From Bacteroidota bacterium (GTDB lineage: Bacteria > Bacteroidota > Bacteroidia > Bacteroidales > Prolixibacteraceae), in contig JAUYMU010000137.1 in NCBI GenBank assembly GCA_030698405.1, positions 30,008 through 94,007 on the forward strand: 64,000 nt of DNA, given 5' to 3'. Shown here one piece after another: positions 2,233 to 58,964 of this stretch; positions within the stretch are counted from its first letter, which is position 1; each line of letters opens with the position of its first letter. The notes beneath the pieces are model-generated. The model was not told the DNA's origin. It worked only from the letters and a program-made list of their open reading frames with translations, and searched no databases. The position numbers and the translations under genes were made by a program.

Positions 2233-2297
2233 CAGTGAATTTTGCAAGTATCGAACAGAACTTTGCAACTTTACCGGCAATAAAGGCCTCACCTTTG
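2233..2297 (+). promoter_or_regulatory. AraC-type direct-repeat operator plus promoter, site 1
   Basis: Half-sites at 2237-2248 (GAATttTGCAAG) and 2258-2269 (GAACttTGCAAC) are 21 bp apart. The -7 box CACCTTTG is at 2290-2297. The DUF3494 lipoprotein start lies 36 bases further on. This is the most TGCAA-rich member of the family. Confidence 0.75.
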
Positions 2298-2333
2298 AGT
2301 CGTGGCAATACTGTCACCAACAAAACAAAAAAA

Positions 2334-3164
2334 ATGAACCTTGTAAAACTAATGCCAATCATGGCTATGCTATTGGTTGGATTAATCACCGGTTGTAGTA
2401 AAAGTGCAGATAGCGTTTATGGATTAAACGAAACTTCAGTTTCAAATCAAACTGCCATTTCTTCAGAAAATTCCACCAATCTGAAGTCAGCTGTGATTTT
2501 ACCACAAGAAGGAAATTTAAAAGGTGTAAATCTGGGAGTTTCAGGCGATTTCGTAATTCTATCGAAAACCGGAGTTACCAGTGTGTATAAATCCAGCATT
2601 ACCGGAGATATTGGAACAAGTCCGATTACAGGGGCCGCAATGGTTTTCAGTTGTGGTGAAGTGACAGGAAATGTATATTCAGTTGATGCTGCCGGCCCTG
2701 CATGTAAAATTACCAGCGCCACCAGATTAGGAATTGCAGTTCTTGATATGCAGGCTGCCTACACTGATGCCGCCGGACGTGTTAACCCTGATTTTCTGAA
2801 TTTAGGAGCCGGAAATATTGGTGGCAAAACACTTACTCCTGGTTTGTACAAATGGACAAGCGCACTTGTTATCCCAACGGATATTACTATTTCGGGCAGC
2901 CCGACTGATGTTTGGATTTTCCAGGTTGCCGGAACCCTAATAATGAGTTCAGCTGTAAGAATTACGCTGGCCGGTGGCGCTCAGGCAAAAAATATTTTCT
3001 GGCAGACATCTGGTGCCGTTACTTTAGGAACCACCAGCCACTTTGAAGGTATCATAATAAGCCAGACAGGAATTAATTTGCAGACAGGCGCATCAATAAA
3101 CGGAAGATTGTTGGCGCAAACTGCTGTAACATTACAAATGAATGCTGTTACACAGCCAAAATAA
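2334..3164 (+). CDS. DUF3494 (ice-binding-like) lipoprotein
   Basis: A 276-residue protein beginning MNLVKLMPIMAMLLVGLITG with a lipobox Cys at about residue 21, so it should be a lipid-anchored envelope protein. Residues about 75-275 match the DUF3494 ice-binding-like beta-solenoid family: VWIFQVAGTL, GGAQAKNIFWQ, GAVTLGTTSHFEG and NGRLLAQTAVTLQ are hallmark strings. Known members bind ice, but many bacterial members have no proven activity and may be adhesins. The ATG at 2334 is chosen because an upstream in-frame start at 2235 would run across the operator and -7 box. It sits alone between two near-identical response regulators, with its own operator and a strong terminator. Confidence 0.85.
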   Translation: MNLVKLMPIMAMLLVGLITGCSKSADSVYGLNETSVSNQTAISSENSTNLKSAVILPQEGNLKGVNLGVSGDFVILSKTGVTSVYKSSITGDIGTSPITGAAMVFSCGEVTGNVYSVDAAGPACKITSATRLGIAVLDMQAAYTDAAGRVNPDFLNLGAGNIGGKTLTPGLYKWTSALVIPTDITISGSPTDVWIFQVAGTLIMSSAVRITLAGGAQAKNIFWQTSGAVTLGTTSHFEGIIISQTGINLQTGASINGRLLAQTAVTLQMNAVTQPK

Positions 3165-3180
3165 ATTTCTCTTATCACCA

Positions 3181-3223
3181 AAACACAAAAAGGCGGTTCC
3201 GGTGGGATCGCCTTTTTGTGTTT
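3181..3223 (+). terminator. Intrinsic terminator after DUF3494 gene
   Basis: A perfect 15-bp stem: 3181-3195 (AAACACAAAAAGGCG) pairs with 3209-3223, with a 13-base loop. The A/T-rich outer stem supplies a T-tract on either strand. Confidence 0.88.
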
Positions 3224-3252
3224 AAGTGTAGGAATGACTGGCCGGATTAAAT

Positions 3253-3318
3253 GTGTGAATATTGCAAATAAATAACGAAATTATGTAACGATATCCCATG
3301 CAATGGGTTGCAACTTTA
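3253..3318 (+). promoter_or_regulatory. AraC-type direct-repeat operator plus promoter, site 2
   Basis: Half-sites at 3257-3268 (GAATatTGCAAA) and 3278-3289 (AAATtaTGTAAC), 21 bp apart. The -7 box CAACTTTA is at 3311-3318. It drives the response regulator at 3449 through a leader of about 125 bases, the longest in the set. The leader contains an ATGAAG/CTTCAT hairpin at 3363-3384. Confidence 0.75.
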
Positions 3319-3448
3319 CAGCACAAAATTATATTTCAATAATGCCCGTTTGCAAAGGTTATATGAAGGTGAAAATATCTTCATAAGAAACATGCAACAT
3401 ATAAAACAGACCGTGGAAAATGAATAATCTGATTAAAAGCGCAAATCA

Positions 3449-3880
3449 ATGAACAACGAAAAAATTAAAATATTTCTGGTCGATGATGATGCCCTGTATT
3501 TAAAATTACTTGAAATTGAATTGTTGGAGCATGAGGATTTCGATATTCAAACTTATTCAACAGGTGAACTTTGCCTGGAAAATCTGAAATATAATCCCGA
3601 TGTGATCATTTTGGATTATGAACTTAATGGCATTGATAAAAAAGCTATGAACGGATTAGATATTCTTGATAAAATAAAAGCCTACAATCCTTTAATTCCG
3701 GTGGTAATGCTTTCGTCGCAGGATAAAATAGAGATTGCAATAAATTGTATGCATCACAAAGCTTTCGACTATGTTGTTAAAAGCGAGACTGCTTACCTTC
3801 GGCTGAGAAAAATCATCCCTGCCGTTTTCCGATTCAAAAAAATGGAAAAAGAACTGAACTGGTACATGGAGCGGATGTAA
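3449..3880 (+). CDS. Single-domain response regulator (twin copy 2)
   Basis: A 143-residue receiver, paralogous to the product at 1694, with the same acidic pocket, phospho-acceptor Asp56 in IILDYEL, LSSQDK and VVKSET motifs and the same WYMERM end. It has no output domain. It leads a unit with the CHASE3 kinase that starts 13 bases downstream, and carries an AraC-type operator upstream. Keeping two copies next to different kinases suggests the phosphate input was split between two sensors after duplication. Confidence 0.92.
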   Translation: MNNEKIKIFLVDDDALYLKLLEIELLEHEDFDIQTYSTGELCLENLKYNPDVIILDYELNGIDKKAMNGLDILDKIKAYNPLIPVVMLSSQDKIEIAINCMHHKAFDYVVKSETAYLRLRKIIPAVFRFKKMEKELNWYMERM

Positions 3881-3893
3881 TACAATTTTTAAA

Positions 3894-5519: not shown

Positions 5520-5596
5520 ACAATTTCACAGCTCCAGAGGAGCGGAATATTTGTAGCATAAAAGAATCAAAGAAAAAACAATAAACCACCCAAATT

Positions 5597-6043: not shown

Positions 6044-6077
6044 TTTAAAATCAGAAACCATTTTGAACTCTAATTTC

Positions 6078-9036: not shown

Positions 9037-9058
9037 CAAAAAGTAAAAATCAGACAAG

Positions 9059-9124
9059 GTGTGAATCATGTAACTTTTCGCCGGAATTGTGTAACGCTTA
9101 TCGAGTTAGCAATGATGATCTTTG
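9059..9124 (+). promoter_or_regulatory. AraC-type direct-repeat operator plus promoter, site 3
   Basis: Half-sites at 9063-9074 (GAATcaTGTAAC) and 9084-9095 (GAATtgTGTAAC), nearly ideal, 21 bp apart. The -7 box GATCTTTG is at 9117-9124. Start codon of the small-membrane-protein operon is 38 bases on. Confidence 0.85.
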
Positions 9125-9128
9125 TAAG

Positions 9129-9162: not shown

Positions 9163-9489
9163 ATGAAAAAATTAACTCTTGGCTTAATGACTGGTTGCAT
9201 GTTGCTATTATGCAATCCAACCTTATTGAAAGCAGAAACAGAAACTGCAACAACTGCAACAACAGTAACTGCAACAGCTAAATCAGCAGAGATCTCTAAA
9301 ATGGAAATCAGGTTAAATGAAATCAAGGAGATGGATATGAAAACACTGAATTCGGCAGAAAAGAAAGAATTACGCAAAGAAGTTCGCACAATAAAGAGCG
9401 ACATCAAGGCAGTAAACAATGGTGGTGGAGTTTATATTTCTGTTGGAGCTGCAATTCTTATCGTTCTTTTATTAATCCTTTTATTATAA
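9163..9489 (+). CDS. Small exported, C-terminally membrane-anchored protein
   Basis: 108 residues. A signal peptide (MKKLTLGLMTGCMLLLCNPTLLKAE), a Thr/Ala-rich spacer, a charged helix (about 45-85, EIRLNEIKEMDMKTLNSAEKK), then GGGVYISVGAAILIVLLLILLL as a C-terminal membrane helix with no cytoplasmic tail. The paralogue at 18215 has the same plan and the shared words NSAEKKELRKE / TVAEKRELRKE. I do not recognise a characterised family. It is the first gene of a five-gene run of tiny membrane proteins behind an AraC-type operator, which suggests an envelope-stress role (inference). Confidence 0.82.
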   Translation: MKKLTLGLMTGCMLLLCNPTLLKAETETATTATTVTATAKSAEISKMEIRLNEIKEMDMKTLNSAEKKELRKEVRTIKSDIKAVNNGGGVYISVGAAILIVLLLILLL

Positions 9490-10562: not shown

Positions 10563-12167
10563 ATGCTAGTAACCATTACCAGAAAAAAATATACATTTTC
10601 TCCTGATTCCAGCCGGGTAATTGCCCGTTTTCTTTACCTTGACGACGAAAGATCTGCAAACATTATCAGGAAAGTATTGGCCATGCCCGAAAAGGAAGTA
10701 AACCTTGCCATGAGCCAGGTACTGAGAGGTTTTTCGCGCCGTCACCGTAATATTTCGAAAATATTTGAAAAACATTTTGACAGGCTTGCCCCTATTTTTG
10801 ATAAAATAGAAGTGAATGAAGAAGATCTCAGTATGCCTCAGAAATCGTTGATAGGCTCGTATTTCACATTGGAATATTCAATTGAATCGGCTGCTTTCTT
10901 TAATCCATCAATTGTTGAACATCCCGATCAGTCAGAATTAAGGTCAGATGAGAAAAGGGTCATTTTCAGTTTTCGGGCAACCGGTGAAGGACATATTTCG
11001 TCCGTTGTTTTCCGTTCAGGAATACTCGACAAGCACAATAACCTGACGATAGAACCTGTTGGGAAAATGCTGGCCGAAGCAGATAAAATTATACGCAATA
11101 CTTACAATAAAAAAAAATTTCGGAAGAAACTGGATGGAATGCAAGACCACGGAACTGTTATTCCACCTGCTGTTGTTGATAATATTGATGAAATACAAGA
11201 TCCTGAAAATATGATCCCTTCGGGTATCCTTGAAAACCATGAAAAAACGATTGAGAAGGGAAATGTCATTTCTCCGGACTTTATCCTGGATAAGTTAGGT
11301 GACAGCTTTACCTATGGTGAATTGATGAAAAACCTTGAAAAAGCAGTAAAGGATCCGGATCTTACCGAGGATCAGATAAAAATTATCAATCAAATGATGT
11401 GGCTGGCTTCATCGCACTATGAGATTCATTTCTCTATTGATTCGTCTATTTCAGAAAGGGTTATTTTCCCCATTTCAGCAACCGAGCAAAGAGGGATAGA
11501 AGATGCCCGTTTCGTTAAATTTACTGATGACGATGGCGAAATTACTTATTATGCCACCTATACGGCTTTCGATGGAATGACTATTCTTCCGAAGTTAATC
11601 AGCACAAAAGACTTTTATGATTTTAAGGTATTGCCGATTAATGGCGAGATTGCCCGGAACAAGGGTATGGCTCTGTTTCCCCGGAAAATAAACGGAAAAT
11701 ACGCCATGCTTTGCCGAATTGACGGCGTAAATAATTACATCGCTTATTCCGACAGTATCAATATCTGGCGCGAAGCAAAAATAATAATGGAACCCAAATA
11801 CTCCTGGGAACTGGTGCAGGTTGGCAATTCCGGTTCACCAATCGAGACAAAAGACGGCTGGCTGGTTATTACACACGCCGTAGGATCGATGAGAGAATAT
11901 ACTTTGGGCGCGGCATTGTACGAACTTGATAATCCGGAGAAAGAAATTGGAAGGCTGAGTAGTCCGCTGATGGTTCCCAACGAAGAAGAACGTGAAGGTT
12001 ATGTGCCAAACGTAATTTATTCGTGTGGTTCGATGATCCATAATGACGACCTTATTATCCCTTATGCCATGTCTGATCATGCATCAACTTATGCAACCGT
12101 TAATCTTAAGGAACTGCTCGATGTATTAAAAGCCTCCGGAAACAAAAAGGAAGAAGACAATGTGTGA
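10563..12167 (+). CDS. GH130-family glycosidase/phosphorylase
   Basis: A 534-residue protein with no signal peptide, so cytosolic. The N-terminal third is a helical extension. The beta-propeller part carries family GH130 landmarks: IEDARFVKFTDDDG, KGMALFPRKINGKYAMLCRID, WELVQVGNSGSPIET, DGWLVITHAV and GYVPNVIYSCG. GH130 enzymes split beta-mannosidic bonds by phosphorolysis or hydrolysis; the exact linkage cannot be read here. A GT4-type glycosyltransferase with a toroid domain lies at 15915 in the same stress-gene block, so a shared mannose-containing glycan is plausible (inference). The TGA stop is part of operator site 4. A lone half-site upstream at 10475 is not convincing. Confidence 0.85.
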   Translation: MLVTITRKKYTFSPDSSRVIARFLYLDDERSANIIRKVLAMPEKEVNLAMSQVLRGFSRRHRNISKIFEKHFDRLAPIFDKIEVNEEDLSMPQKSLIGSYFTLEYSIESAAFFNPSIVEHPDQSELRSDEKRVIFSFRATGEGHISSVVFRSGILDKHNNLTIEPVGKMLAEADKIIRNTYNKKKFRKKLDGMQDHGTVIPPAVVDNIDEIQDPENMIPSGILENHEKTIEKGNVISPDFILDKLGDSFTYGELMKNLEKAVKDPDLTEDQIKIINQMMWLASSHYEIHFSIDSSISERVIFPISATEQRGIEDARFVKFTDDDGEITYYATYTAFDGMTILPKLISTKDFYDFKVLPINGEIARNKGMALFPRKINGKYAMLCRIDGVNNYIAYSDSINIWREAKIIMEPKYSWELVQVGNSGSPIETKDGWLVITHAVGSMREYTLGAALYELDNPEKEIGRLSSPLMVPNEEEREGYVPNVIYSCGSMIHNDDLIIPYAMSDHASTYATVNLKELLDVLKASGNKKEEDNV

Positions 12168-12227
12168 ATGATGTAATTAATTTCAAAAATTGTATAAGGT
12201 TTTTCTGATGTTAGATCTTCAAATTTG
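12162..12227 (+). promoter_or_regulatory. AraC-type direct-repeat operator plus promoter, site 4
   Basis: Half-sites at 12166-12177 (GAATgaTGTAAT) and 12187-12198 (AAATtgTATAAG), 21 bp apart. The -7 box CAAATTTG is at 12220-12227. The TGA of the operator is the stop codon of the GH130 gene. It drives the CsbD gene at 12267. Confidence 0.8.
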
Positions 12228-12578: not shown

Positions 12579-12644
12579 CTGTGAATGATGTAACTTTTTC
12601 CCGGAATTGTGTAACGCTTTTCAGTCAACAGAACCTCACCTTTG
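12579..12644 (+). promoter_or_regulatory. AraC-type direct-repeat operator plus promoter, site 5
   Basis: Near-consensus half-sites at 12583-12594 (GAATgaTGTAAC) and 12604-12615 (GAATtgTGTAAC), 21 bp apart. The -7 box CACCTTTG is at 12637-12644. It drives the CsbD-like gene at 12682. Confidence 0.87.
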
Positions 12645-15918: not shown

Positions 15919-18134
15919 TAAAAGAAGCCAGTACTGAAATTCTAATTATCACCTCCTATCCGCCCAGGGAATGCGGCATAGCAACTTATTCGCAGGATTT
16001 AATCAGATCGTTGAATAATAAATTCAGCAATTCCCTGTCGGTAAAAGTATGTGCGATGGAAGCTGATGAAGTGGATTATGAATATCCCGATGAAGTGAAA
16101 TACATCCTGAAAACCTCCATCGCCGCCGAATATGAAAAACTGGCAATCACAATAAATAATGACAAAAACATCAAAATTGTGTTGATACAGCACGAGTTTG
16201 GTTTTTTTCACGTTCAGGAACAGGCATTCCTGAAATTTCTGACGGAAGTTTCAAAACCCGTTGTGGTTGTTTTTCATACTGTCTTGCCTAATCCTGACGA
16301 AAAATTCAAAAAAAACGTACAGCGCATTGCGGCTGCCTGCGAATCAATCATTGTAATGACCAACACTTCCGCCGGACTTTTAACAAGCGATTATGGCGTG
16401 CCAACGCAGAAAATTTCTGTAATCGCGCACGGAACACATTTGATTCCACGTTTAAGCAAGAAATCTTTAAAACTGAAATATAAACTAAAAGGCCGCAGGG
16501 TGCTGACCACCTTTGGCTTACTAAGTTCAGGAAAAGGAATTGAAACCACCATTGAAGCGATGCCGGCCATTGTTGAAAAATGTCCTGAAGTAATGTTCCT
16601 GGTAATTGGAAAAACCCATCCTGAAGTGGTGAAAAACGAAGGCGAAAAGTACCGGGAAATGCTCGTCAAAAGAGTGGAAGAACTTGGGCTTAACAACAAT
16701 GTACGATTTATCAACAAATATCTGGATTTGCCAGAACTGCTTGAATATTTGCAGCTTACCGACATTTACCTGTTTACGACCAACGATCCGAACCAGGCAG
16801 TAAGCGGTACTTTTGTTTACGCAATGAGTTGTGGGTGCCCAATTATTTCGACACCGATACCACATGCAAAAGAAATATTGACGAAGGATACAGGTATTAT
16901 TTTTGATTTTCGGAATTCACAGCAATTGGCTACTGCTGTAATCAAGCTCCTTCGAAATGATAAATTACGAAGGAGCATCGGCATAAATACCTTGCAGAAA
17001 ATAGTTTCAACAGCCTGGGAAAATTCTGCAGTTGCCCATGCGATGTTGTTCAGTAAAATTATGGGCGATAAAATTACCATTCGGTACAATTTGCCGCCGA
17101 TCAACCTGAAGCATTTAAACAACATGACAACCAGTATCGCTATGATCCAGTTTTCAAGAATCAATCAACCGGATATTGGATCAGGATATACCCTCGATGA
17201 CAATGCCAGGGCACTGGTTGCATCTTGCATGTATCTGGAAACGACGGGCGACAGGAAAATCGTTTACAAGATCAAAAAATACCTCCGCTTTATAAAGTAT
17301 TGCCAAAAGCCTGATGGCGACTTTTTAAATTATGTTGATAAATATCTTGATTTTACCGGTCAAAACGAAGAGGATAATTTAGATGATTCGAATGGCCGTG
17401 CTATTTGGGCTTTGGGCTATCTGACTTCGTTACCAGGCCTTTTGCCCGCCAAACTCATATCAGATGCCGGATCAATGATTGAAAAATCAATGCCGCACAT
17501 ACGAACAGTAAGCTCCACAAGGTCGATGGCATTTGCAGTAAAAGGCTTATATCATTATCAAACCGTGGTAAATTCTCCTGAAATTGTCGAACTTATAAAA
17601 ACCTTTGCCAATCGGATGGTTCAGATGTACAGGCACGAATCAGGTAAAGGTTGGGAGTGGTTTGAAAGTTACCTCACCTATGGAAACAGCACCTTGCCCG
17701 AAGCGATGCTTTACGCATGGTTGCTGACAAAAGATGCGGTTTATAAAGACATTGCCCTTGCTTCGTTCAATTTTTTGCTCAAACAAATTTTCAATGAGAA
17801 CGGGATTGAAGTAATTTCGAACAAGCACTGGCTGCAAAAAGGACAAAAACCAGGGAAATTTGGAGAACAGCCGATTGACGTTGCTTACACAATAATGACA
17901 TTGAGTACCTTTTACCATATATTTAACGACGACGATTACCGTATAAAAAAGGAAACCGCTTTTAACTGGTTTCTGGGAAGCAACCGTTTGCACCAGATTG
18001 TTTACAATCCATGTACCGGCGGTTGTTACGACGGGCTGGAGGATACGCATGTGAACCTTAACCAGGGCGCTGAATCAACGGTAAGTTACCTGATGGCAAG
18101 ATTAACTCTGGAGAAGAATGTGGCAATAATGTAA
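15915..18134 (+). CDS. GT4-type glycosyltransferase fused to an (alpha/alpha) toroid domain
   Basis: 739 residues. Residues 1-385 are a GT-B fold: ITSYPPRECGIATYSQDL, LIQHEFGFF, LTTFGLLSSGKGIETTIEA and the donor-binding end SGTFVYAMSCGCPIISTPI with AKEIL. From about 395 an all-helical six-hairpin region follows (GYTLDDNARALVASC, WEWFESYLTYGNSTLPEAML, YNPCTGGCYDGL). Such fusions occur near GH130 enzymes, as here at 10563. A cytosolic mannosyl-oligosaccharide pathway is an inference. The stop codon TAA is the TGTAAC core of operator site 6. Confidence 0.85.
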   Translation: MIKEASTEILIITSYPPRECGIATYSQDLIRSLNNKFSNSLSVKVCAMEADEVDYEYPDEVKYILKTSIAAEYEKLAITINNDKNIKIVLIQHEFGFFHVQEQAFLKFLTEVSKPVVVVFHTVLPNPDEKFKKNVQRIAAACESIIVMTNTSAGLLTSDYGVPTQKISVIAHGTHLIPRLSKKSLKLKYKLKGRRVLTTFGLLSSGKGIETTIEAMPAIVEKCPEVMFLVIGKTHPEVVKNEGEKYREMLVKRVEELGLNNNVRFINKYLDLPELLEYLQLTDIYLFTTNDPNQAVSGTFVYAMSCGCPIISTPIPHAKEILTKDTGIIFDFRNSQQLATAVIKLLRNDKLRRSIGINTLQKIVSTAWENSAVAHAMLFSKIMGDKITIRYNLPPINLKHLNNMTTSIAMIQFSRINQPDIGSGYTLDDNARALVASCMYLETTGDRKIVYKIKKYLRFIKYCQKPDGDFLNYVDKYLDFTGQNEEDNLDDSNGRAIWALGYLTSLPGLLPAKLISDAGSMIEKSMPHIRTVSSTRSMAFAVKGLYHYQTVVNSPEIVELIKTFANRMVQMYRHESGKGWEWFESYLTYGNSTLPEAMLYAWLLTKDAVYKDIALASFNFLLKQIFNENGIEVISNKHWLQKGQKPGKFGEQPIDVAYTIMTLSTFYHIFNDDDYRIKKETAFNWFLGSNRLHQIVYNPCTGGCYDGLEDTHVNLNQGAESTVSYLMARLTLEKNVAIM

Positions 18135-18185
18135 CTTTTTTTCGGAATTGTGTAACAAGTCAAAACTTGTTATTTCACAACTTTA
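18120..18185 (+). promoter_or_regulatory. AraC-type direct-repeat operator plus promoter, site 6
   Basis: Half-sites at 18124-18135 (CAATaaTGTAAC) and 18145-18156 (GAATtgTGTAAC), 21 bp apart. The -7 box CAACTTTA is at 18178-18185. The first half-site contains the stop codon of the glycosyltransferase. It drives the small protein at 18215. Confidence 0.85.
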
Positions 18186-22108: not shown

Positions 22109-22174
22109 GTGTGAATAATGCAATTATTATTAAAAAAAATGTAACAGAAGAATGCTCAGATATTCCGATTTTTG
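22109..22174 (+). promoter_or_regulatory. AraC-type direct-repeat operator plus promoter, site 7
   Basis: Half-sites at 22113-22124 (GAATaaTGCAAT) and 22134-22145 (AAAAaaTGTAAC), 21 bp apart. The -7 box GATTTTTG is at 22167-22174. It drives the gene at 22228. Confidence 0.75.
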
Positions 22175-22818: not shown

Positions 22819-22884
22819 GTGTGAATCTTATAATTTTTCCCAAAAATTGTGTAATACATTTTTTTACCTCCACATTTATCTTTA
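22819..22884 (+). promoter_or_regulatory. AraC-type direct-repeat operator plus promoter, site 8
   Basis: Half-sites at 22823-22834 (GAATctTATAAT) and 22844-22855 (AAATtgTGTAAT), 21 bp apart. The -7 box TATCTTTA is at 22877-22884. The start codon at 22908 is 23 bases on. Confidence 0.8.
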
Positions 22885-24877: not shown

Positions 24878-25153
24878 ATGAAAATATTGATGGAAAAAAA
24901 TCAAAAAGACCAACGCATTCAGCAATCTGATGGAAAGTCAAAACAACCTTTAACCGGAAACGAAAGACAAAATCCGGCAAAAAGACCGAGGATTCCACGT
25001 CCTGACAAACCAGTGACTCCTCCATCGAAGCCGGAAATAAATCCGGAACCCGCCATCCCTGCACCGGGTATACAGGAACCAGAAATTAACGACCCAACCC
25101 GAATAGATGAACCACCTCCGGTTTTTAATCATAAAAATGTGAGAATCATGTAA
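24878..25153 (+). CDS. Small proline-rich hypothetical protein
   Basis: 91 residues (87 if the ATG at 24890 is used). It is hydrophilic, with a Gln/Lys-rich N terminus then PRIPRPDKPVTPPSKPEIN and repeated PEP/PAP words, so it is likely disordered. No signal peptide. The stop codon TAA lies inside operator site 9. Modest confidence as a real gene; codon usage resembles its neighbours. Confidence 0.6.
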   Translation: MKILMEKNQKDQRIQQSDGKSKQPLTGNERQNPAKRPRIPRPDKPVTPPSKPEINPEPAIPAPGIQEPEINDPTRIDEPPPVFNHKNVRIM

Positions 25154-25203
25154 ATATCAACAAGAATTCTGTAATTTTTTCAAGTGTCATCTCAATAAAT
25201 TTG
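25139..25203 (+). promoter_or_regulatory. AraC-type direct-repeat operator plus promoter, site 9
   Basis: Half-sites at 25143-25154 (GAATcaTGTAAA) and 25164-25175 (GAATtcTGTAAT), 21 bp apart. The -7 box TAAATTTG, a full match, is at 25196-25203, one base closer than usual. It drives the hybrid kinase at 25321. Confidence 0.82.
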
Positions 25204-27145: not shown

Positions 27146-27664
27146 ATGAAAAACGAGATCCAAGTAACAATCGAAATAAACGGGCAGAATAATCCGGAAC
27201 AGCATGGTGAAATTGCAGAATTACTTAAAGTAGAATCAGAAGTAAAAATTTCGAATGACAATAAACAAATTTCTACTTCAGATCAGTTAGATACTGAGTT
27301 ATATAAGCTGATTGAAGAAATTAAAACTGCCGTTCATCAGTTAATTTATCTTTCTGACAAACTTCCGGATCAGAAAACTTCAAACTATATCATTAATAAA
27401 GTCAACCGCGAATATTCCTATCTGAACGAACTTTTTATAAGCAATACAGGCATTTCGATTAAAAAGTACATCAATATCCAGAAAATTGAACTCGTTAAAG
27501 AAATACTGTTTTACGACGAAACCGATCTGTTTGTAATTGCCCGTAAATTAAATTTTCGAAGTGTATCGAAATTAGAAGACAAGTTTATTAAACAAACCGG
27601 TGTATCTGTTGCTTTTTACAAACTACTTCGAAAAACCAGTGCAGGAAAATCCAAAAATGTGTGA
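27146..27664 (+). CDS. AraC-type DNA-binding protein (short form)
   Basis: 172 residues. The C-terminal about 90 residues form an AraC/XylS double helix-turn-helix: NYIINKVNREYSYLNELFIS, TGISIKKYINIQKIELVKEIL, then LFVIARKLNFRSVSKLEDKFIKQTGVSV. The N-terminal 75 residues are hydrophilic with no recognised sensor. It is related to the protein at 33058 but lacks its HMA-like domain. It is a candidate to bind the 21-bp direct repeats seen 16 times here. Its own stop TGA is part of operator site 10. Its upstream region has no copy of the operator. Confidence 0.85.
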   Translation: MKNEIQVTIEINGQNNPEQHGEIAELLKVESEVKISNDNKQISTSDQLDTELYKLIEEIKTAVHQLIYLSDKLPDQKTSNYIINKVNREYSYLNELFISNTGISIKKYINIQKIELVKEILFYDETDLFVIARKLNFRSVSKLEDKFIKQTGVSVAFYKLLRKTSAGKSKNV

Positions 27665-27724
27665 ATTATGCAATTATTTTCAAAAATTGTGTAAGCCTTT
27701 GGTCGGTGCATCGCAGTATATTTA
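27659..27724 (+). promoter_or_regulatory. AraC-type direct-repeat operator plus promoter, site 10
   Basis: Half-sites at 27663-27674 (GAATtaTGCAAT) and 27684-27695 (AAATtgTGTAAG), 21 bp apart. The -7 box TATATTTA is at 27717-27724. The operator shares the TGA stop of the AraC gene and drives Dps. Confidence 0.82.
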
Positions 27725-33057: not shown

Positions 33058-33618
33058 ATGGAGCTCCACATCAAAAATATGGTTAGTAATCGCTGCAAAC
33101 TGATTTTAAAATCAGAACTTGAAAAACTTGAGATAAATTATACCGACATAAATCTGGGCAGTGCAGAAATTACCGAAGACATCACCCCGGAAAGGAAAAA
33201 CCTGCTGGACTTCAATCTGAAAAAATTCGGGCTTTCGCTAATTGAAGACAAGAAAGGGATGTTGGTTGAAAAAATAAAAAATATCATCATTGAATTGGTT
33301 CATTATTCAGAAAATCAGATCAAGCTAACCTTCTCTGATTATTTAAGCGAAAGACTAAATTACGATTACACCTATCTGGCCAATCTCTTTTCGGAACACC
33401 AGGGAATATCCATTGAACACTACTTTCTGAGCCACAAAATTGAACGGGTAAAGGAATTGCTGATTTACGACGAACTCAACATTACCGAAATAGCCTACAG
33501 ATTGCATTACAGCAGTGTTGCGCATTTGTCGAACCAATTCAAAAAAATCACCGGATTAACCCCGTCCCACTACAAACATCTCAAGTCGAAAAAACGTATT
33601 CCACTCGAAAAGGTGTGA
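33058..33618 (+). CDS. AraC-type regulator with HMA-like N terminus
   Basis: 186 residues. Residues 1-60 resemble a heavy-metal-associated fold (MELHIKNMVSNRCKLILKSE); most relatives have MVCxRC, but here the first Cys is Ser, so a CxxC metal site is lost. The C-terminal part is a complete AraC double helix-turn-helix: YTYLANLFSEHQGISIEHYF, KIERVKELLIYDELNITEIA and SSVAHLSNQFKKITGLTPSH. Proteins of this type bind direct repeats about 21 bp apart. It is the best candidate for the 16-site operator family. Its stop codon TGA is part of operator site 11. Confidence 0.9.
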   Translation: MELHIKNMVSNRCKLILKSELEKLEINYTDINLGSAEITEDITPERKNLLDFNLKKFGLSLIEDKKGMLVEKIKNIIIELVHYSENQIKLTFSDYLSERLNYDYTYLANLFSEHQGISIEHYFLSHKIERVKELLIYDELNITEIAYRLHYSSVAHLSNQFKKITGLTPSHYKHLKSKKRIPLEKV

Positions 33619-33678
33619 ATAATGTAACTCCTCTCTGCAATTGTGTAACACTTTCACGTAATTTCAGACCCATCTTTG
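33613..33678 (+). promoter_or_regulatory. AraC-type direct-repeat operator plus promoter, site 11
   Basis: Half-sites at 33617-33628 (GAATaaTGTAAC) and 33638-33649 (CAATtgTGTAAC), 21 bp apart. The -7 box CATCTTTG is at 33671-33678. It shares the TGA stop of the AraC gene. The first ATG downstream (33691) opens only a 20-codon frame. Confidence 0.83.
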
Positions 33679-34785: not shown

Positions 34786-34851
34786 GTGTGAATATTGTAA
34801 TTTATTTTTAAAGTTGTGTAATACATACTTTGATAACAATATTTAAATTTG
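34786..34851 (+). promoter_or_regulatory. AraC-type direct-repeat operator plus promoter, site 12
   Basis: Half-sites at 34790-34801 (GAATatTGTAAT) and 34811-34822 (AAGTtgTGTAAT), 21 bp apart. The -7 box TAAATTTG, a full match, is at 34844-34851. It drives the M48 peptidase at 34894. Confidence 0.87.
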
Positions 34852-42111: not shown

Positions 42112-42189
42112 AGGATGCCAAAGATGTCAAAACCTGCATTTAAAACCGTTACAGAATTCCGGGAAAGATTTACAACATTCGCACATTTC

Positions 42190-42480: not shown

Positions 42481-42546
42481 GTGTGAATCATGTAATTCTT
42501 TCTGAAAGTTCTGTAACAGCCAAACTGCAAATACAGTATAACTTAG
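42481..42546 (+). promoter_or_regulatory. AraC-type direct-repeat operator plus promoter, site 13
   Basis: Half-sites at 42485-42496 (GAATcaTGTAAT) and 42506-42517 (AAGTtcTGTAAC), 21 bp apart. The -7 box TAACTTAG is at 42539-42546. It drives the UspA operon. Confidence 0.8.
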
Positions 42547-44726: not shown

Positions 44727-44999
44727 ATGAACGAAGAACGAAAACAAGGAGCTGCAAATGATCATTTGGCAAATGAACGTACCTATCTTGCATGGGTACG
44801 CACAAGCATCGGAATAATGGCATTCGGGTTCGTGGTTGTCAAGTTTTCTTTATTTGTAAAACAAATTTCCATACTACTTGGAAATGAAGCCATCATCCAT
44901 CCAAAAGAGTATTCTTCATTTATGGGTATTGTCCTTGTATTGGTGGGCACAATTACTGCAATTCTTTCATACATACGCTATAAAAGCCGGAATGTGTGA
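44727..44999 (+). CDS. DUF202 (YidH-like) membrane protein
   Basis: 90 residues, two to three helices, with the DUF202 opening HLANERTYLAWVRTSIGIMA and a closing helix IVLVLVGTITAILSYIRY. Function unknown. Last gene of the UspA operon. Its TGA stop is part of operator site 14. Confidence 0.9.
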   Translation: MNEERKQGAANDHLANERTYLAWVRTSIGIMAFGFVVVKFSLFVKQISILLGNEAIIHPKEYSSFMGIVLVLVGTITAILSYIRYKSRNV

Positions 45000-45059
45000 A
45001 TGTTGCAATTTTTCCATAAAATTCTGTAAAACAATTATGCTTAAAAGTTCCGTACTTAG
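44994..45059 (+). promoter_or_regulatory. AraC-type direct-repeat operator plus promoter, site 14
   Basis: Half-sites at 44998-45009 (GAATgtTGCAAT) and 45019-45030 (AAATtcTGTAAA), 21 bp apart. The -7 box GTACTTAG is at 45052-45059. It shares the stop codon of the DUF202 gene. The weakest -7 box of the set; the hydrolase start is 14 bases on. Confidence 0.7.
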
Positions 45060-48795: not shown

Positions 48796-48861
48796 CTGTG
48801 AATAATGTAACTTTTTACCAAAGTTATGTAACGCTTACCGCAAGCAAACTATTTATCTTTA
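48796..48861 (+). promoter_or_regulatory. AraC-type direct-repeat operator plus promoter, site 15
   Basis: Half-sites at 48800-48811 (GAATaaTGTAAC) and 48821-48832 (AAGTtaTGTAAC), 21 bp apart. The -7 box TATCTTTA is at 48854-48861. It drives the baeRF3-CbpM-TamB-TamL unit. Confidence 0.87.
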
Positions 48862-53300: not shown

Positions 53301-55323
53301 TCTGATCGTTGAGATCATCAATTTCAGGCTCGACGACATTTCAGGAATAATTGAAAAAGATACCGCCATGGTGAAGGGAACTGTTGACGGAAGTGTAATG
53401 CTTAAACGGGTTGCCGAATCGTATGGATTAATCTCGGATATAGAAATCAATAACCTGATTGTGAAAGAAGTTCCAATCGGCAATTTATCGTTACAGGCAG
53501 AGCGGTCGGAAGCAAATAAATTCGATATTGACGTGACTTTGTCAGGCCCCGATAACAATCTTACCCTGAGCGGTCATTTCATCCCGGATGGCGTTGCGAA
53601 TGCGATCAACATAAAAACTGAAATTCAATCGCTTTCGATGAAAACCATTGAAGCTTTTTCGATGGGTCAGATTAGCGAAGCAGACGGAACGCTCACCGGA
53701 AATTTTTCAGTTAAAGGTACAACTGCAGCGCCTGAACTTACAGGCGAACTGGTTTTCAACAATGCGTTCATGAAACCTTCTTTCCTGAACAACCGTCTGG
53801 AAATTAAAAACGAAACGATTCAACTGAAGAAGGATGGAATCTATTTCGACTCATTCACCATGTTGGATGGCAATCAGAATACGGCGATCATTGATGGTTC
53901 TGTTCAGATGAATCAATTTTCGGATTTCGTTTTCGCTTTACAGGTCAATACCAACGATTTTTTGCTGTTCAACACAACGGCAAAAAATAACAAAGAATTC
54001 TTTGGGCGGATGGTTGTTGACAGCAAAATAAATGTAACCGGCCCAATGAGCCTTCCGGTTGTAAACGCAAGGGTGACGATGAAAAAAGGCTCGAACTTTA
54101 CATTTTCAGTTCCTGAAGACAAACTGACCACCGACAAGGGGGAAGGTGTGGTTGAATTTGTAAATAAAATGAAATTCCACCCGATTTTAACCAGAGGCGA
54201 TAGAAAAGGTGGACAAATCACCGGCACGTCTGGCTATGATATCTCCTCCATTATTTCAATCGACAAGGAAGCAACGCTCCGTTTGTTAATGGATCCGGCT
54301 TCCACCGACTCATTGGTAGTCCGGGGCGATGCTGCATTAAGCTTCACCATGGATCAAAGCGGAAAAATGAGCCTTACCGGCGCCTACAATTTAAGTGACG
54401 GAAGTTACCTGGTATCGTTGGAGTCGGTCATCAAAAAGAAATTTGCCATTAAAGCGGGAAGCACGATTATCTGGAACGGTGATCCGATGGATGCCAATAT
54501 ATCGATCGATGCAATTTATACCGTTCGGGCTTCGCCAATCGACCTTGTTGCCGATCAAATATCCGGGTTAAGTGATGTTGACAAGGGCGGCTATAAACAG
54601 CGATACCCATTTTTGGTTTTGCTGAAACTTCGTGGCGAAATTTTACATCCTCAAATTAGTTTCGAAATACAATTATCGCCCGAAGACAAAGGAATATTGG
54701 GTGGCGCTGTGAATCAGAAACTAAACATGCTGAATGTAGATGAATCGGCATTGAACAAACAGGTTTTTGCTTTACTGGTATTGGGTCGGTTTACCCAGGA
54801 AAATCCTTTTCAAACCGAATCTGCCGGTGGAACTTCCACCATCATCCGGTCAACTGTAAGTAAATTTTTATCGGCACAATTAAATCAGCTGAGCTCCAAA
54901 ATGATTCCCGGAGTGGAGTTGAATTTTGACATACAATCGTACGACGATTATCAGACCGGAAGCGCAAAAGGAAGAACGGAAGTGGAGATTGGTGTCAAAA
55001 AGCAACTCTTCAACGAGCGATTGTCGGTAGAATTGGGTGGTTCAGTTGATGTTGAAGGAGATCAGGCCAAACAAAATACGGCAAGCGAAATTACCAGTGA
55101 TGTAACCATCGAATATAAACTGAACAAGGATGGCACTTTCAGGATGAAAGGTTTCAGGCACAATCAGTACGAAGGCGCCATCGAAGGTCAATTGGTCGAA
55201 ACCGGTGTTGGTTTGGTATATGTACGCGATTTCAATAGCTGGCGGAGATTTTTCAAACCGTACAAAAGACAGCCCCCTAAATCCCCCGAAGGGGGACTTT
55301 TAGAGACCCTCCCTGACAAATAA
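50335..55323 (+). CDS. tamB: Translocation and assembly module protein TamB
   Basis: 1662 residues. An N-terminal membrane anchor (AIIWIALIFVLLFLTIALLI), then a very long periplasmic beta-taco repeat region, ending in the TamB (DUF490) domain with SDGSYLVSLESVIKKKFAIK, GSTIIWNGDPMDANISIDAI and LGGSVDVEGDQAK. TamB bridges the two membranes and helps lipid transport or outer-membrane protein assembly. Its last 17 residues (PPKSPEGGLLETLPDK) are encoded by a palindromic repeat that is absent from other members. The next gene, TamL, starts 1 base after its stop. Confidence 0.93.
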   Translation: MISVKSVIRVTIKAIIWIALIFVLLFLTIALLIQKPSIQTKIVQFATSFISNKTNTKVEIGSVSIAFPKTVVIEGLYLEDLNQDTMIYAGKAKVNIALYDLLKSKIAISSFGLENATVKLHSTLADPLFNYNFLLTAFGDTTSKAKSDTLSASKWTFSLDEIELENIRFTYHDEYAGMNVFAGIKSAEIAVDILDPGKSIYQFDEMVVNGLTAIVRRINSGNISAGNPESVLPRIVANNIQIGNSTISFADSIGNLSVNAILSESELENFSIDLQTELLNIESINLAKSQIRYHDFKSEIPLGSVVATSENNWQVSVKSIEMLDNVFVYKIGNNPEIKGLFDPKNLNFNHLDLEATDFFYSSVLTKVSVKEFSAIDQNNFAFTHLETDFSMDANSITTNKLKFTTANSSINADFNIRFKSLNTLIESLEFIHMDLTLRNLRFRNSDLLYFNPELIAQPFFKNRSNITTASGKVNGSLKNLKAKNLTIKTGENTILKTDFIIKGLPDYETAFYDFPNLSLISGKKDLVMMAGPYLPDSIGIPENISLDAVFKGRMKEFETTANMTSSFGDANIIASIDPAENFSGKVIMSSLDIGRFLKDTVLYGPVSLTGEADGQGLDMNTIKAKIKAEVTELYLNNYTYHNLNMDGTVNGKQFEGKINLDDENMVFDFDGLVNLNPDQEQYKFKLNVLGADLKKLKLTEADVQISFISAADLKGGSVDKMNGTAGINKIIVARGGKKYLLDSFLTASVNEPNKSEINVSSSLIDIKYSGTVSPIALPALLNQFINNYFPLSDSIQQVKKGDQSNFNFEIQFHNHPILSKVLLPELLEFEPGIIKGSFDSQKSELKLNASMKKIVYGTTEIKDFVVDVNSDNTALNYKFSSAAISNSQISLDNFSLDGKLADNILFANVSSTDGKKKKLLMMSQMTKNNGNYKLTLDPKEFYLVNKQWNIAADNSIEFGNQGFRIHKFFFDHAESQINVASVHDRFNDDLIVEIINFRLDDISGIIEKDTAMVKGTVDGSVMLKRVAESYGLISDIEINNLIVKEVPIGNLSLQAERSEANKFDIDVTLSGPDNNLTLSGHFIPDGVANAINIKTEIQSLSMKTIEAFSMGQISEADGTLTGNFSVKGTTAAPELTGELVFNNAFMKPSFLNNRLEIKNETIQLKKDGIYFDSFTMLDGNQNTAIIDGSVQMNQFSDFVFALQVNTNDFLLFNTTAKNNKEFFGRMVVDSKINVTGPMSLPVVNARVTMKKGSNFTFSVPEDKLTTDKGEGVVEFVNKMKFHPILTRGDRKGGQITGTSGYDISSIISIDKEATLRLLMDPASTDSLVVRGDAALSFTMDQSGKMSLTGAYNLSDGSYLVSLESVIKKKFAIKAGSTIIWNGDPMDANISIDAIYTVRASPIDLVADQISGLSDVDKGGYKQRYPFLVLLKLRGEILHPQISFEIQLSPEDKGILGGAVNQKLNMLNVDESALNKQVFALLVLGRFTQENPFQTESAGGTSTIIRSTVSKFLSAQLNQLSSKMIPGVELNFDIQSYDDYQTGSAKGRTEVEIGVKKQLFNERLSVELGGSVDVEGDQAKQNTASEITSDVTIEYKLNKDGTFRMKGFRHNQYEGAIEGQLVETGVGLVYVRDFNSWRRFFKPYKRQPPKSPEGGLLETLPDK
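55270..55305. repeat. GC-rich palindromic repeat inside the 3' end of tamB
   Basis: AGCCCCCTAAATCCCCCGAA then GGGGGACTTTT. An inverted copy lies at 55401-55428, inside the 5' end of tamL. Together they could fold the mRNA at the gene junction. Confidence 0.75.
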
Positions 55324-55324
55324 A

Positions 55325-57691
55325 ATGATTGACAAGAAGATGATAAAATTTTCACACATAGAAAAAATGATCATAAAAAAACTGAAAGCGCTGCTTTTCT
55401 TAAGCCCCCCTTGGGGGGTTTGGGGGGCCGTTCTCCTTTTGGCATCATGCAGCGGTACACGGCATTTACCCGATGGTGAAAAGCTTTATACCGGTGCAGA
55501 AATTAAACTGGAATCAGCTGAACACGTAAATAAAAAACAAATCAAAGCTGCGGCCGCAGGTGCTGTGCGCCCGCTACCGAACAAAGGATTTTTTGGTATT
55601 CGACCTAAATTGTGGATGAACAATCTGGCCGGACCCGAGCCCAAAACCAAATTGGAGAAGTGGCTGAAGAAAACAGGCGAACCCCCTGTACTCATGAGTA
55701 GCGTTAAACCAAGTGTTACCGCCGAAATAATTGATGCCAGACTTTTTAACATGGGGATATTCAGGAGTTTTACTGAATACAAAACCGAAGATAAAAAGAA
55801 TAGCGCCAAAGTAATTTACACCAGTCATTTGCACAAACCATACGTGGTTAAAGAGCTGCTTTATAATATTTCAGATGACAGTGTAAGTCGTTTAATTCTG
55901 CTGGAAAAAGACAAAACACTGATCAAGCCCGGTGATGATTATAATCTCGACGCCTTGAAAACCGAACGGATGCGAATCGACGCTTTCCTGAAAAACAAGG
56001 GCTATTTCTACTTCAATCCCGATCATTTGCTTTTCAAAGCCGATACTTCGAACATCAATCAGGATGTTTCGTTCACATTGACTTTAAAAGACAGTATCCC
56101 GGTTGATGCCCTGACTGTTTATCACATCAACAATGTGCATGTCAATCAGAACTATTCCTTGAATGAAAGACGATCACAAAATGCGCAAGACACGATTGTA
56201 GTAGGTGATATCGTATTTTTTGGGAGAGAAGAACGAATGGCGATCAAACCAAAGGTACTTTCAAAATCAATTTACCTGCGAAAAAACGATGTCTTTTCAA
56301 GGCAAAACCACATCATCACGCTGAACCGTTTGATGTCGATGGGGAATTTCAAACTGGTACAGGTGAACTTTGCCGAAAACAATGATTCAGGGCCGGGATT
56401 GCTGGATGTAAATATCCTGATGACACCCATGCCCAAACGAACATTCAGGGCTGAATTTGATCTGGTTTCAAAATCGAATAATTACGCAGGACCGCGAATG
56501 AATATGAGTATCCTGAACAGAAATACCTTTGGCGGGGCAGAATTGTTAAATCTCAATCTGGCCGGATCATTTGAAGCACAAATAGGTAACAAGAATGAAA
56601 ATTTGTATTCCTATTCCTACAATCCACAGGTTGAACTGACATTTCCACGCTTTATTCTTCCGTTTAATATTAAAGGTTCGAGCAGTTTTTACGTTCCAAA
56701 AACACGATTATTACTCTCCTACAACTACTTAAAACGAGTTAATTATTTCGACATGCGTACTTTTAAGTTCGTATATGGTTTTAAGTGGAAAGAAAATATC
56801 AGGAAAGAACATGAATTGAATCCAATTGACATCAGCTATACCCAAATCGGGAACAAATCAACGACATTCACTGATTTGCTCGAAGCAAACCCTTTTCTGA
56901 AAAAAAGCTATGAAGAGCAGTTTATTGCCGGAGGCAGTTATTCGTTTACCTACAATGAGCAAATGCTGACCGGGAAAAAACTGCAATCCTATTTTCAAGG
57001 CAACTCAGAGCTTGCCGGTAATGTTTTTTCACTGGCAAACGGTATTTTCGGCAACAAAGTATCGTCAGAAAATCCTTCAAAAGTGGTTGGCTCAATCTAT
57101 TCGCAATACGCAAAACTCAGCCTCGATGGACGCAGTTATCTCAACTTCAAGGACAAAAACAAACTGGCCATGCGGGTTTTTGCCGGAGTAGCCCAACCAT
57201 TCGGGAATTCTTCCGTGATGCCTTATATCAAGCAGTTCTTCTCCGGAGGACCAAACAGTATCCGTGCTTTTCAGATTAATTCTGTTGGTCCCGGAACATA
57301 TTTTCAGGATACAGGCAAAAGAGGCTTTTTGCAAATGGGAGGCGATGTAAAACTGGAAGCAAATGCAGAATACCGCTTTGGCATTTACAGCTTCTTCAAA
57401 GGAGCTTTGTTTGTCGATGCCGGAAATGTGTGGTTGCTTAAATCAAATCCGGCCAATACCGGAAGCCCGTTCATGTTTTCCAAATTTATGAACCAGATGG
57501 CCGTTGGCGCCGGAGCAGGGATAAGAATCGACGTTTCCTTTTTCATCTTGCGCTTCGATCTGGCCATGCCACTGCGAAAACCCTGGCTCGAAGAAAACAA
57601 CCGCTGGGTAACCAACGAAATCAACTTCGGAAGCTCTGCCTGGAGAAGCGACAATTTGGTTCTGAATGTGGCGATTGGATATCCTTTTTAA
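55325..57691 (+). CDS. tamL: TamL: lipoprotein BamA/TamA-family outer-membrane protein
   Basis: 788 residues (an ATG at 55367 gives a typical signal). Lipobox LLASCSG, then POTRA-like modules with PYVVKELLYNISDDSVSRLI and a C-terminal 16-strand barrel of the Omp85 type (FFSGGPNSIRAFQINSVGPG, the conserved barrel motif, and AIGYPF at the end). Bacteroidota use lipidated TamL in place of TamA, paired with TamB as here. The region just before the lipobox (SPPWGVWGA) is encoded by an inserted palindromic repeat. Confidence 0.92.
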   Translation: MIDKKMIKFSHIEKMIIKKLKALLFLSPPWGVWGAVLLLASCSGTRHLPDGEKLYTGAEIKLESAEHVNKKQIKAAAAGAVRPLPNKGFFGIRPKLWMNNLAGPEPKTKLEKWLKKTGEPPVLMSSVKPSVTAEIIDARLFNMGIFRSFTEYKTEDKKNSAKVIYTSHLHKPYVVKELLYNISDDSVSRLILLEKDKTLIKPGDDYNLDALKTERMRIDAFLKNKGYFYFNPDHLLFKADTSNINQDVSFTLTLKDSIPVDALTVYHINNVHVNQNYSLNERRSQNAQDTIVVGDIVFFGREERMAIKPKVLSKSIYLRKNDVFSRQNHIITLNRLMSMGNFKLVQVNFAENNDSGPGLLDVNILMTPMPKRTFRAEFDLVSKSNNYAGPRMNMSILNRNTFGGAELLNLNLAGSFEAQIGNKNENLYSYSYNPQVELTFPRFILPFNIKGSSSFYVPKTRLLLSYNYLKRVNYFDMRTFKFVYGFKWKENIRKEHELNPIDISYTQIGNKSTTFTDLLEANPFLKKSYEEQFIAGGSYSFTYNEQMLTGKKLQSYFQGNSELAGNVFSLANGIFGNKVSSENPSKVVGSIYSQYAKLSLDGRSYLNFKDKNKLAMRVFAGVAQPFGNSSVMPYIKQFFSGGPNSIRAFQINSVGPGTYFQDTGKRGFLQMGGDVKLEANAEYRFGIYSFFKGALFVDAGNVWLLKSNPANTGSPFMFSKFMNQMAVGAGAGIRIDVSFFILRFDLAMPLRKPWLEENNRWVTNEINFGSSAWRSDNLVLNVAIGYPF
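55401..55428. repeat. GC-rich palindromic repeat inside the 5' end of tamL
   Basis: AAGCCCCCCTTGGGGGGTTT then GGGGGGC, the reverse complement form of the repeat at 55270. It codes for part of the signal peptide without breaking the frame. Confidence 0.72.
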
Positions 57692-57722
57692 TTATTTTTG
57701 TCGGAACAATTATATCAATGTC

Positions 57723-57929
57723 ATGAAAGTACTATTAGATATACCCGACAACAAGGCTGCCTCTCTGATGGATGTACTGGGAAGCATTTCATATTTAAAA
57801 GCAATGCCAATTACTGAAGCCAAAGCATTGTTATTAGAAGAATTAAAAGAGGCTGTAGAAGAAATGAAGCTGATAAAGGCAGGTAAAAAAACAGCCCGTA
57901 ACGCTGAAGATTTTTTAAATGAGCTATAA
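57723..57929 (+). CDS. Type II antitoxin
   Basis: 68 residues: MKVLLDIPDNKAASLMDVLG opening and a Lys/Glu helix (LLLEELKEAVEEMKLIKAGK) ending in AEDFLNEL. It overlaps the toxin gene by 11 bases, the usual antitoxin-toxin arrangement. The ATG at 57723 is chosen over an upstream frame inside tamL. Confidence 0.82.
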   Translation: MKVLLDIPDNKAASLMDVLGSISYLKAMPITEAKALLLEELKEAVEEMKLIKAGKKTARNAEDFLNEL

Positions 57930-58248
57930 CGTAAAGTCTATTGCTGTTTTTGAGCGGCAAGCGAAAAGGCTAATTCGCAAATATGCCTCACTGAAAAATG
58001 AGCTTTTGGAACTGGTGCAAAATCTCAAAGAGAATCCGGAACAAGGAATAGCATTGGGAAATCATTGTTTCAAAATCCGAATTGCTGTCGCATCAAAGGG
58101 CAAAGGGAAATCAGGCGGAGCAAGAATTATCACGAACTTTGCAGTTTCTAAAAACACGGTTTATCTGCTTTCAATTTACGATAAGTCTGAAAAAGACAAT
58201 CTTACCGATAGAGAATTGAATGAACTTCTACAATTTATTCCTGAATAA
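57919..58248 (+). CDS. RelE/ParE-type toxin
   Basis: 109 residues with the fold pattern of RelE-like mRNA interferases: FERQAKRLIRKYASLKNELL, the ALGNHCFKIRIAV strand, GARIITNFAVSKNTVYLLSI and YDKSEKDNLTDRELNELL. Target presumably ribosome-bound mRNA (family knowledge). Complete, so the module is probably functional. Confidence 0.85.
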   Translation: MSYNVKSIAVFERQAKRLIRKYASLKNELLELVQNLKENPEQGIALGNHCFKIRIAVASKGKGKSGGARIITNFAVSKNTVYLLSIYDKSEKDNLTDRELNELLQFIPE

Positions 58249-58307
58249 ATCTTAACGCTTCAATACAAAATACAAAACAACCATTATCAAAGCATGGGAG
58301 GTATTTC

Positions 58308-58694
58308 ATGGAAAAGTTGAAAAATATAAAAATTGAAAAAGTTTGGTTCGATGATGACAACATCTACATCCAAACAAATGATGGAACAGAAAAAAGCCAC
58401 CCGCTGCGTTGGTTCGACAGGTTGTGGAATGCTACCCCCGAACAACGTGAACAATATGAATTAAGCACTTGGGGTGATTCTATTCATTGGCCGGAACTGG
58501 ACGAGGACATGAGTCTCGAAGGCTTCTTCACTTACAACAAAGACGAAACAGAAAAAGAGCAAAATGAGGTATCGCGTGTTTTTCGGCAGTTTCCTGCAAT
58601 AAATATTACACGGTTTGCCGAACAGGTTAAAATAAACCGCAGTCTTTTGGCAAGCTATGTTTGTAACGAAAAAAAAACCATGAATCAAGAATAA
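58308..58694 (+). CDS. DUF2442 plus helix-turn-helix protein, C terminus frameshifted
   Basis: 128 residues. DUF2442 (KIEKVWFDDDNIYIQTNDGT, SHPLRWFDRLWNATPEQREQ) and then an HTH-like end (INITRFAEQVKINRSLLASY). Full-length relatives continue to an IEEALHQLGxxLL tail; that tail is present out of frame at 58693-58755 (KKQIEEALHQLGKDLLAVKL). A nine-A run at 58669-58677 and a TGA account for the loss. Often an antitoxin-like regulator in this phylum. Confidence 0.78.
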   Translation: MEKLKNIKIEKVWFDDDNIYIQTNDGTEKSHPLRWFDRLWNATPEQREQYELSTWGDSIHWPELDEDMSLEGFFTYNKDETEKEQNEVSRVFRQFPAINITRFAEQVKINRSLLASYVCNEKKTMNQE

Positions 58695-58755
58695 AAAACA
58701 AATTGAAGAAGCCTTGCACCAGCTTGGGAAAGATTTGTTAGCGGTAAAATTATAG
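58693..58755 (+). pseudogene. Out-of-frame C-terminal tail of the DUF2442 protein
   Basis: Reads KKQIEEALHQLGKDLLAVKL and stop, the expected end of the upstream HTH domain. The frame is one base off the upstream gene and the connecting stretch contains a TGA, so at least two changes separate them. Confidence 0.7.
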
Positions 58756-58830
58756 TAACCGATGCACCTCAAAAAAACCTTAGTAACGTAGATCAGCCCC
58801 CAAACCTTAACCTTATTAGCCTTATGCTAG

Positions 58831-58878
58831 AACTTTCCCAAAGTTTTTTAAGTATGAATAAACTTTGGGAAAGTTTTT
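58831..58878. terminator. Terminator hairpin, same stem as at 40453
   Basis: A perfect 16-bp stem (AACTTTCCCAAAGTTT) with a 13-base loop and a T-run. It ends the DUF2442 unit, just before operator site 16. Confidence 0.85.
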
Positions 58879-58899
58879 AACAATAGATTAAAGGGAAAC

Positions 58900-58964
58900 C
58901 TGTGAATGATGTAACTCTTTTCAAATGTTGTGTAAGATTTAAAGGTTGCTGACTCATATCTTTA
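58900..58964 (+). promoter_or_regulatory. AraC-type direct-repeat operator plus promoter, site 16
   Basis: Half-sites at 58904-58915 (GAATgaTGTAAC) and 58925-58936 (AATGttGTGTAAG type, core TGTAAG), 21 bp apart. The -7 box TATCTTTA is at 58957-58964. It drives the P-ATPase at 59021. Confidence 0.83.

Follow-up and report, generated by a model that had tools for sequence, protein, structure and literature searches.

AraC/XylS activators act at tandem half-sites (araI1-I2), and the class II activators SoxS, MarA and Rob bind single boxes as monomers. To our knowledge, there is no settled answer to how Bacteroidota coordinate their survival genes without RpoS or SigB. We analyzed a 64-kb stretch of a Prolixibacteraceae genome (the window; C23:30008-94007 of an assembly of 5.49 Mb in 138 contigs) and observed a recurrent operator-promoter module, in which two direct repeats 21 bp apart precede a predicted −7 promoter box at a fixed distance. 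Its consensus across the window, the source genome and Bacteroidota relatives is AAATGTGTGAATnATGTAACTTTTnnnnAAAATTGTGTAACaCTTT, followed by a 16-bp spacer and a YAnCTTTG box. The module lies before genes, recurs in Bacteroidota, and both co-occurs with and is physically linked to the family of a short AraC-type protein, P0002. As in AraC/XylS systems, this protein has a two-helix DNA-binding domain and the nearer of the 21-bp direct repeats stands beside the core promoter. Unlike those systems, P0002 is short (186 aa) and in place of a cupin-type sensor has an N-domain predicted to be HMA/Atx1-like, and one operator type recurs before dozens of promoters. SoxS, MarA and Rob differ in turn, as the module has two strictly spaced repeats and P0002 an extra N-domain. 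We found no description of such a regulon among the listed titles and abstract starts of open-licence PMC papers. We consider it likely that the module, of which the sites listed below are copies, is bound by P0002 and its paralogues with the same recognition helix, which would recruit RNA polymerase.

The pattern GAATNNTGYAAYN12TTNTGTAA, with up to two mismatches, matched 16 times in the window, whereas 100 dinucleotide shuffles averaged 0.16 matches, with a maximum of 2. A second pattern of 63 bp, which takes in part of the −7 box, also gave 16 matches at up to five mismatches and none when reversed. The initial annotation had listed 16 sites, all on the + strand. Each of those coordinates carries the described sequence, some weakly (2233 and 22109), but a minus-strand site at 42149-42180 had been missed, and the first pattern's 16 matches are 15 of the listed sites plus this one. 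The remaining site, 2233, is a weaker copy (halves GAATTTTGCAAG / GAACTTTGCAAC) beyond the reach of the two-mismatch pattern.

To describe the module, we aligned 236 non-redundant sites with at most one mismatch from the window, the source genome, six related genomes and 80 named loci. Conservation extended outside the positions used for selection, to TGTG before GAAT, AAA preceding that TGTG, a T-rich stretch after the first TGTAAC and an A before the second half. The box YAnCTTTG was likewise conserved though unused for selection, with TT nearly invariant and C the most frequent first base. A TAnnTTTG-like box (at most one mismatch) begins 22 bp past the pattern end in 168 of the 236 sites and 21 bp past it in 17. 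Together these are 185 different sites, and every other downstream offset accounts for at most 10; offsets falling within the motif score through the motif's own letters. The alignment corrects the initial description in two points: the second half usually reads AA(A/G)TTnTGTAAC rather than GAATnnTGTAAC, making the second repeat degenerate (the halves agree at a mean of 8.5 of 12 positions), and YAnCTTTG describes the box in more cases than TAnnTTTG does. An open reading frame (ORF) of at least 55 aa starts within 300 bp downstream of 229/236 sites, compared to 112/236 in the opposite direction and 69.7% for random positions. We conclude that the sites are copies of one real conserved module, established by sequence. 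In the window they are as follows:

2233..2269, + strand: weak operator with box CACCTTTG at 21-bp spacing, before the ice-binding-domain gene 2334-3164
3253..3289, + strand: operator before the receiver-domain gene 3449 and the CHASE3 histidine kinase 3894
9059..9095, + strand: operator before gene 9163, encoding a small, apparently secreted protein
12162..12198, + strand: operator between the GH130 gene, whose stop it overlaps, and the CsbD gene 12267-12452
12579..12615, + strand: operator before the small ORF 12682-12867 (61 aa)
18120..18156, + strand: operator before gene 18215, small, apparently secreted, in the same homology cluster as 9163
22109..22145, + strand: weak operator (2 mismatches) before ORF 22228-22806
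22819..22855, + strand: operator before the B12-binding/DUF4070 gene 22908
25139..25175, + strand: operator before the PAS histidine kinase-receiver gene 25294
27659..27695, + strand: operator overlapping the P0001 stop codon; before the Dps/ferritin-like gene 27767
33613..33649, + strand: operator overlapping the P0002 stop codon (GTG-TGA); before the DUF3108 gene 33878
34786..34822, + strand: operator before the M48 peptidase gene 34894, then the BrkB-domain gene 35746
42148..42184 (pattern match 42149-42180), − strand: operator before the − strand gene 40504-42111, whose DUF748 match is sub-threshold
42481..42517, + strand: operator before the Usp-family gene 42591
44994..45030, + strand: operator before the alpha/beta hydrolase gene 45074
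48796..48832, + strand: operator before the baeRF family 3 gene 48926
58900..58936, + strand: operator before the P-type cation ATPase gene 59021

The module is not confined to the window. In the source genome, there were 42 matches at up to two mismatches and 4 for the reversed pattern; 16 of the 42 lie on the window's contig C23, 8 on C10, and the remainder are scattered. Allowing up to one mismatch, the pattern matches in 88 of 140 genomes from the same family, in many of them 10 to 37 times, with controls at 0-3 per genome. In a phylum sample of 395 genomes, the 63-bp pattern at up to three mismatches matched in 37, with one control match overall, and most sampled Bacteroidota are therefore without the module.

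We next consider how the module would work as a promoter. In the main text of PMC9723704, where AraC and general stress both have 0 occurrences, the sigma-A box TAnnTTTG of Flavobacterium psychrophilum is mapped at −12 to −5. The module has the same kind of box in a fixed place, but differs from such housekeeping promoters in that the box is usually YAnCTTTG and TTG is found at −33 (−37 to −30) in just 2/236 sites, a count for operator sites alone. With the sigma-A box as a ruler, the repeats fall at about −66 to −55 and −45 to −34, which would be a class II-like activator position if the box stands at −12 to −5. Each repeat would take one two-helix AraC domain, and the bound protein (P0002 or a same-helix paralogue) would replace the missing −33 contact and so recruit RNA polymerase to promoters without a recognizable −33 box. 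Alternatively, the element could be the promoter of an alternative sigma factor, read by one of two RpoD-like sigmas of about 300 residues that we found in the genome (G000:C53:37404-38213 and C119:13704-14516). The departure of the box from TAnnTTTG, with C as its commonest first base and a nearly invariant TT, would suit this explanation. However, two repeats over ~40 bp upstream exceed a sigma contact, the box retains the A and TTTG of its usual form, and presence of the element follows the AraC subfamily within genera, so that we regard an alternative-sigma promoter as very unlikely.

An AraC-family activator is the reader that we favor. The proposed activator and a divergent paralogue are encoded in the window:

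33058..33618, + strand: P0002, short AraC-family protein of 186 aa, proposed activator; AraC DNA-binding domain at residues 64-186
27146..27664, + strand: P0001, divergent AraC paralogue of 172 aa in which neither the N-domain loop nor the second recognition helix is conserved

P0002 has the fold of an AraC DNA-binding domain with two helix-turn-helix motifs, scoring 66.1 bits for HTH_18 (cut-off 33.6) and 43.2 bits for HTH_AraC (cut-off 26.6) in Pfam. Its N-domain (residues 1-63) has a predicted HMA/Atx1-like arrangement with a Cys13 that is invariant in 40 homologues. At the place of the MxCxxC metal-binding loop, these aligned homologues read CxxC (18/40) or SxxC (22/40, including P0002), the second Cys being invariant. 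None of ten proteins scanned against Pfam HMA exceeded the cut-off of 24.8; P0002 had no match, the best score was 16.6 bits (E 0.01, in L037), and two further matches were weaker. A domain of this kind, with its invariant Cys13, may sense a metal or thiol signal. At least 8000 homologues of P0002 were found at E ≤ 1e-30, and those among the 120 listed are named just AraC or helix-turn-helix.

Both AraC genes had been put forward as regulators, and the evidence supports the one at 33058. P0001 (27146), whose AraC Pfam score of 30.6 is under the cut-off, lacks the MVxxRC loop of the N-domain and differs at S152, S158, Q160 and K162. All four residues are invariant in the 40 homologues, and several such residues of the second recognition helix are altered in P0001, which we set aside, on its sequence, as an unlikely main regulator. 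The source genome holds four further P0002 relatives at E < 1e-30 (C23:28065, C76:8539, C98 and C47). The second recognition helix of P0002 is common to C23:28065 and C76:8539, which may act together with it, and differs in C98 and C47. When the 63-bp pattern was allowed six mismatches, we found no operator at these four paralogues except at C98, where one lies ~330 bp upstream (3 mismatches) and another just past the gene (6 mismatches).

We then assessed the physical linkage between operator and AraC family in 80 named loci, the best of 562 around P0002 homologues, whose titles include Bacteroidales metagenome-assembled genomes, Niastella, Flavihumibacter, Terrimonas, Emticicia, Lacihabitans, Flavobacterium and Mucilaginibacter. 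These loci hold 198 sites, whereas the reversed pattern occurs 4 times and 30 permuted patterns average 4.0 matches (maximum 11); 72 of the 80 loci have at least one site. The operator adjoins the AraC gene in 56 loci. In 47 of these it starts between −10 and +150 of the AraC match end, with the in-frame AraC stop inside the operator in 39, and in 31 it starts at exactly +2, with a TGA stop within the operator in 30 of the 31. Overlap with a stop codon also occurs at non-AraC genes in the compact window (sites 12162, 18120 and 44994). The other nine loci carry the site upstream of the AraC gene, seven of them at 80 to 108 bp, where self-activation would be possible.

Operator and regulator family also occur together across genomes. 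In the family set without the source genome, at least three sites ("site-rich") were found in 51 of 60 genomes with a close P0002 homologue (E ≤ 1e-60), compared to 7 of 79 others. Genomes with a close homologue average 11.4 sites, those with a distant member alone 1.05 and those with no member 0.68. Within the window's genus, 16/16 genomes with a close homologue are site-rich vs 0/6 without, and permuting the labels within genera in 20,000 trials gave at most 42, compared to the 51 observed. In the phylum set, the AraC family is present in 35/36 site-bearing genomes and in 142/358 others. Of 91 listed sites in 32 genomes, 43 sites in 16 genomes have a family gene no more than 35 kb away (random expectation 3.2 and 2.9), a limit picked after the distances were known; at 10 kb, the figures are 23/91 sites and 14/32 genomes, with 0.9 and 0.9 expected.

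Several observations weigh against P0002 as the reader. There is no adjacent site on either side in 24 of the 80 AraC loci, and 9 of the 60 close-homologue genomes hold fewer than three sites. At E ≤ 1e-25, no family member was found in 4 of 58 site-rich family genomes, in 14 of 87 genomes with at least one site, or in G331. Moreover, targets should co-occur in the same manner, so that co-occurrence alone is insufficient to make P0002 the regulator. Three genomes (G030, G122 and G331) have sites and no P0002-family gene that we could find; these may rely on a different regulator, or their sites may be relics.

A different regulator, such as a LytTR-type response regulator, could read the operator, with the AraC gene as a mere target. 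LytTR proteins bind direct repeats of about 21-bp spacing, the source genome has 13 LytTR genes, several site-driven genes encode two-component proteins, and the AraC family is absent from some site-bearing genomes as described above. A LytTR gene shares a contig with an isolated site in the source genome (C60, 1.2 kb), in G008 (C51, ~5 kb) and in G002 (C64, ~16 kb). However, no LytTR gene lies in the multi-site clusters listed for the eight genomes examined (C23 and C10 of the source genome; G001 C1:187-224 kb; G002 C13; G006 C32 and C66; G008 C10; G009 C17; G010 C113; G435 C6), and on this linkage we rejected a LytTR regulator. In addition, the AraC gene is mostly upstream of the adjacent operator rather than downstream (47 vs 9 of 80), and the motif is not the known LytTR consensus. 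A reader outside the AraC family thus appears unlikely. The geometry, linkage and co-occurrence together support well the initial assignment of AraC-type 21-bp repeats by a core promoter, and from these sequence data the P0002 family as reader of the module is strongly supported, although not proven.

Among the window targets are CsbD, Dps/ferritin, Usp, M48, P-type ATPase, baeRF3, sensor kinases, an alpha/beta hydrolase, an ice-binding protein and small, apparently secreted proteins. We took as target the longest ORF starting within 300 bp of a site, which biases the tallies; by this choice 12928 is named behind site 12579 instead of 12682, and YtxH (13419) and an AI-2E transporter (14809) lie further downstream. 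A Pfam scan of the target proteins alone (first 330 residues of 132 of 134 representatives, grouped at 60% identity) matched 112 families. The 25 commonest include PAS_9 (6), Big_5 (5), ferritin, CsbD and outer-membrane barrels (4 each), ice-binding and AraC (3 each), and MlaE, YceI, M48, OmpA and YtxH (2 each). At least 12 of 15 scored window targets have a homologue behind a site elsewhere, the kinase group being joined by shared domains, as the clusters are single-linkage and mix multi-domain kinases. The largest group, 20 of 226 target ORFs, is a small, apparently secreted family including 9163-9489 and 18215-18526, for which we found no clear Pfam match. Two CsbD targets had been reported in the window; 12267-12452 is CsbD, but for 12682-12867 Pfam gave no match to CsbD, even with the threshold relaxed to E ≤ 1.

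General-stress families are represented among these targets by CsbD, Dps-like ferritins, YtxH, Usp and M48. Three of them are shared with the SigB regulon, since csbD, dps and ytxH appear in the SigB core list of Bacillus subtilis given in PMC7824861. By this analogy, the proposed stress regulon is plausible, and the targets (Dps-like ferritin, CsbD, YtxH, Usp, M48, envelope proteins, kinases and transporters) would form a general or envelope stress regulon. Control would then be by an AraC-type activator and not by a sigma factor as with SigB in Bacillus or RpoS in Proteobacteria, and one activator may cover part of the role that RpoS or SigB has elsewhere. No protein of the source genome passes the curated cut-off for an RpoS- or SigB-type (SigBFG) sigma, in agreement with the claimed lack of both as far as this genome goes. 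The two RpoD-like sigmas, one of which could have a stress or accessory function, nevertheless leave room for a stress sigma. It could also be that the sites and the AraC regulator are real but serve a narrower role in envelope maintenance, biofilm formation, cold (ice-binding) adaptation or metal response. Outer-membrane barrels, MlaE, OmpA, ice-binding and Big_5 proteins among the targets would fit such a role, as would the resemblance of the N-domain to metallochaperones, while the general-stress families and the SigB control of csbD, dps and ytxH in B. subtilis argue for the broader one. We view the narrower role as a possibility to be taken seriously, short of the reading that we would back.

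Other genes lie among the sites of the window. The site cluster contains a restriction-methylase gene of the MmeI type with all five MmeI Pfam domains (37050-39980), a CheB-CheR-PAS fusion (29107-32079), a lone CheB methylesterase (44116-44712) and a TamB-like and Omp85-like gene pair (50335-57691). A RelE-like gene (57919-58248) beside the small ORF 57666-57929 and the DUF2442 gene 58308 is possibly part of a toxin-antitoxin unit.

In summary, this analysis provides a concrete operator and a list of promoters, together with a candidate regulator that has thousands of homologues. We tentatively suggest that Bacteroidota replace a stress sigma by a master activator, a short protein of the AraC family whose sensor domain resembles a metallochaperone. 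It would act at dozens of promoters through a single strict operator, which often lies within the 3′ end of the activator's own gene. If this is true, it would give the phylum a set of regulated promoters, reveal an unrecognized pairing of a sensor domain with an AraC domain, and represent a type of stress switch that is unusual in Bacteroidota.

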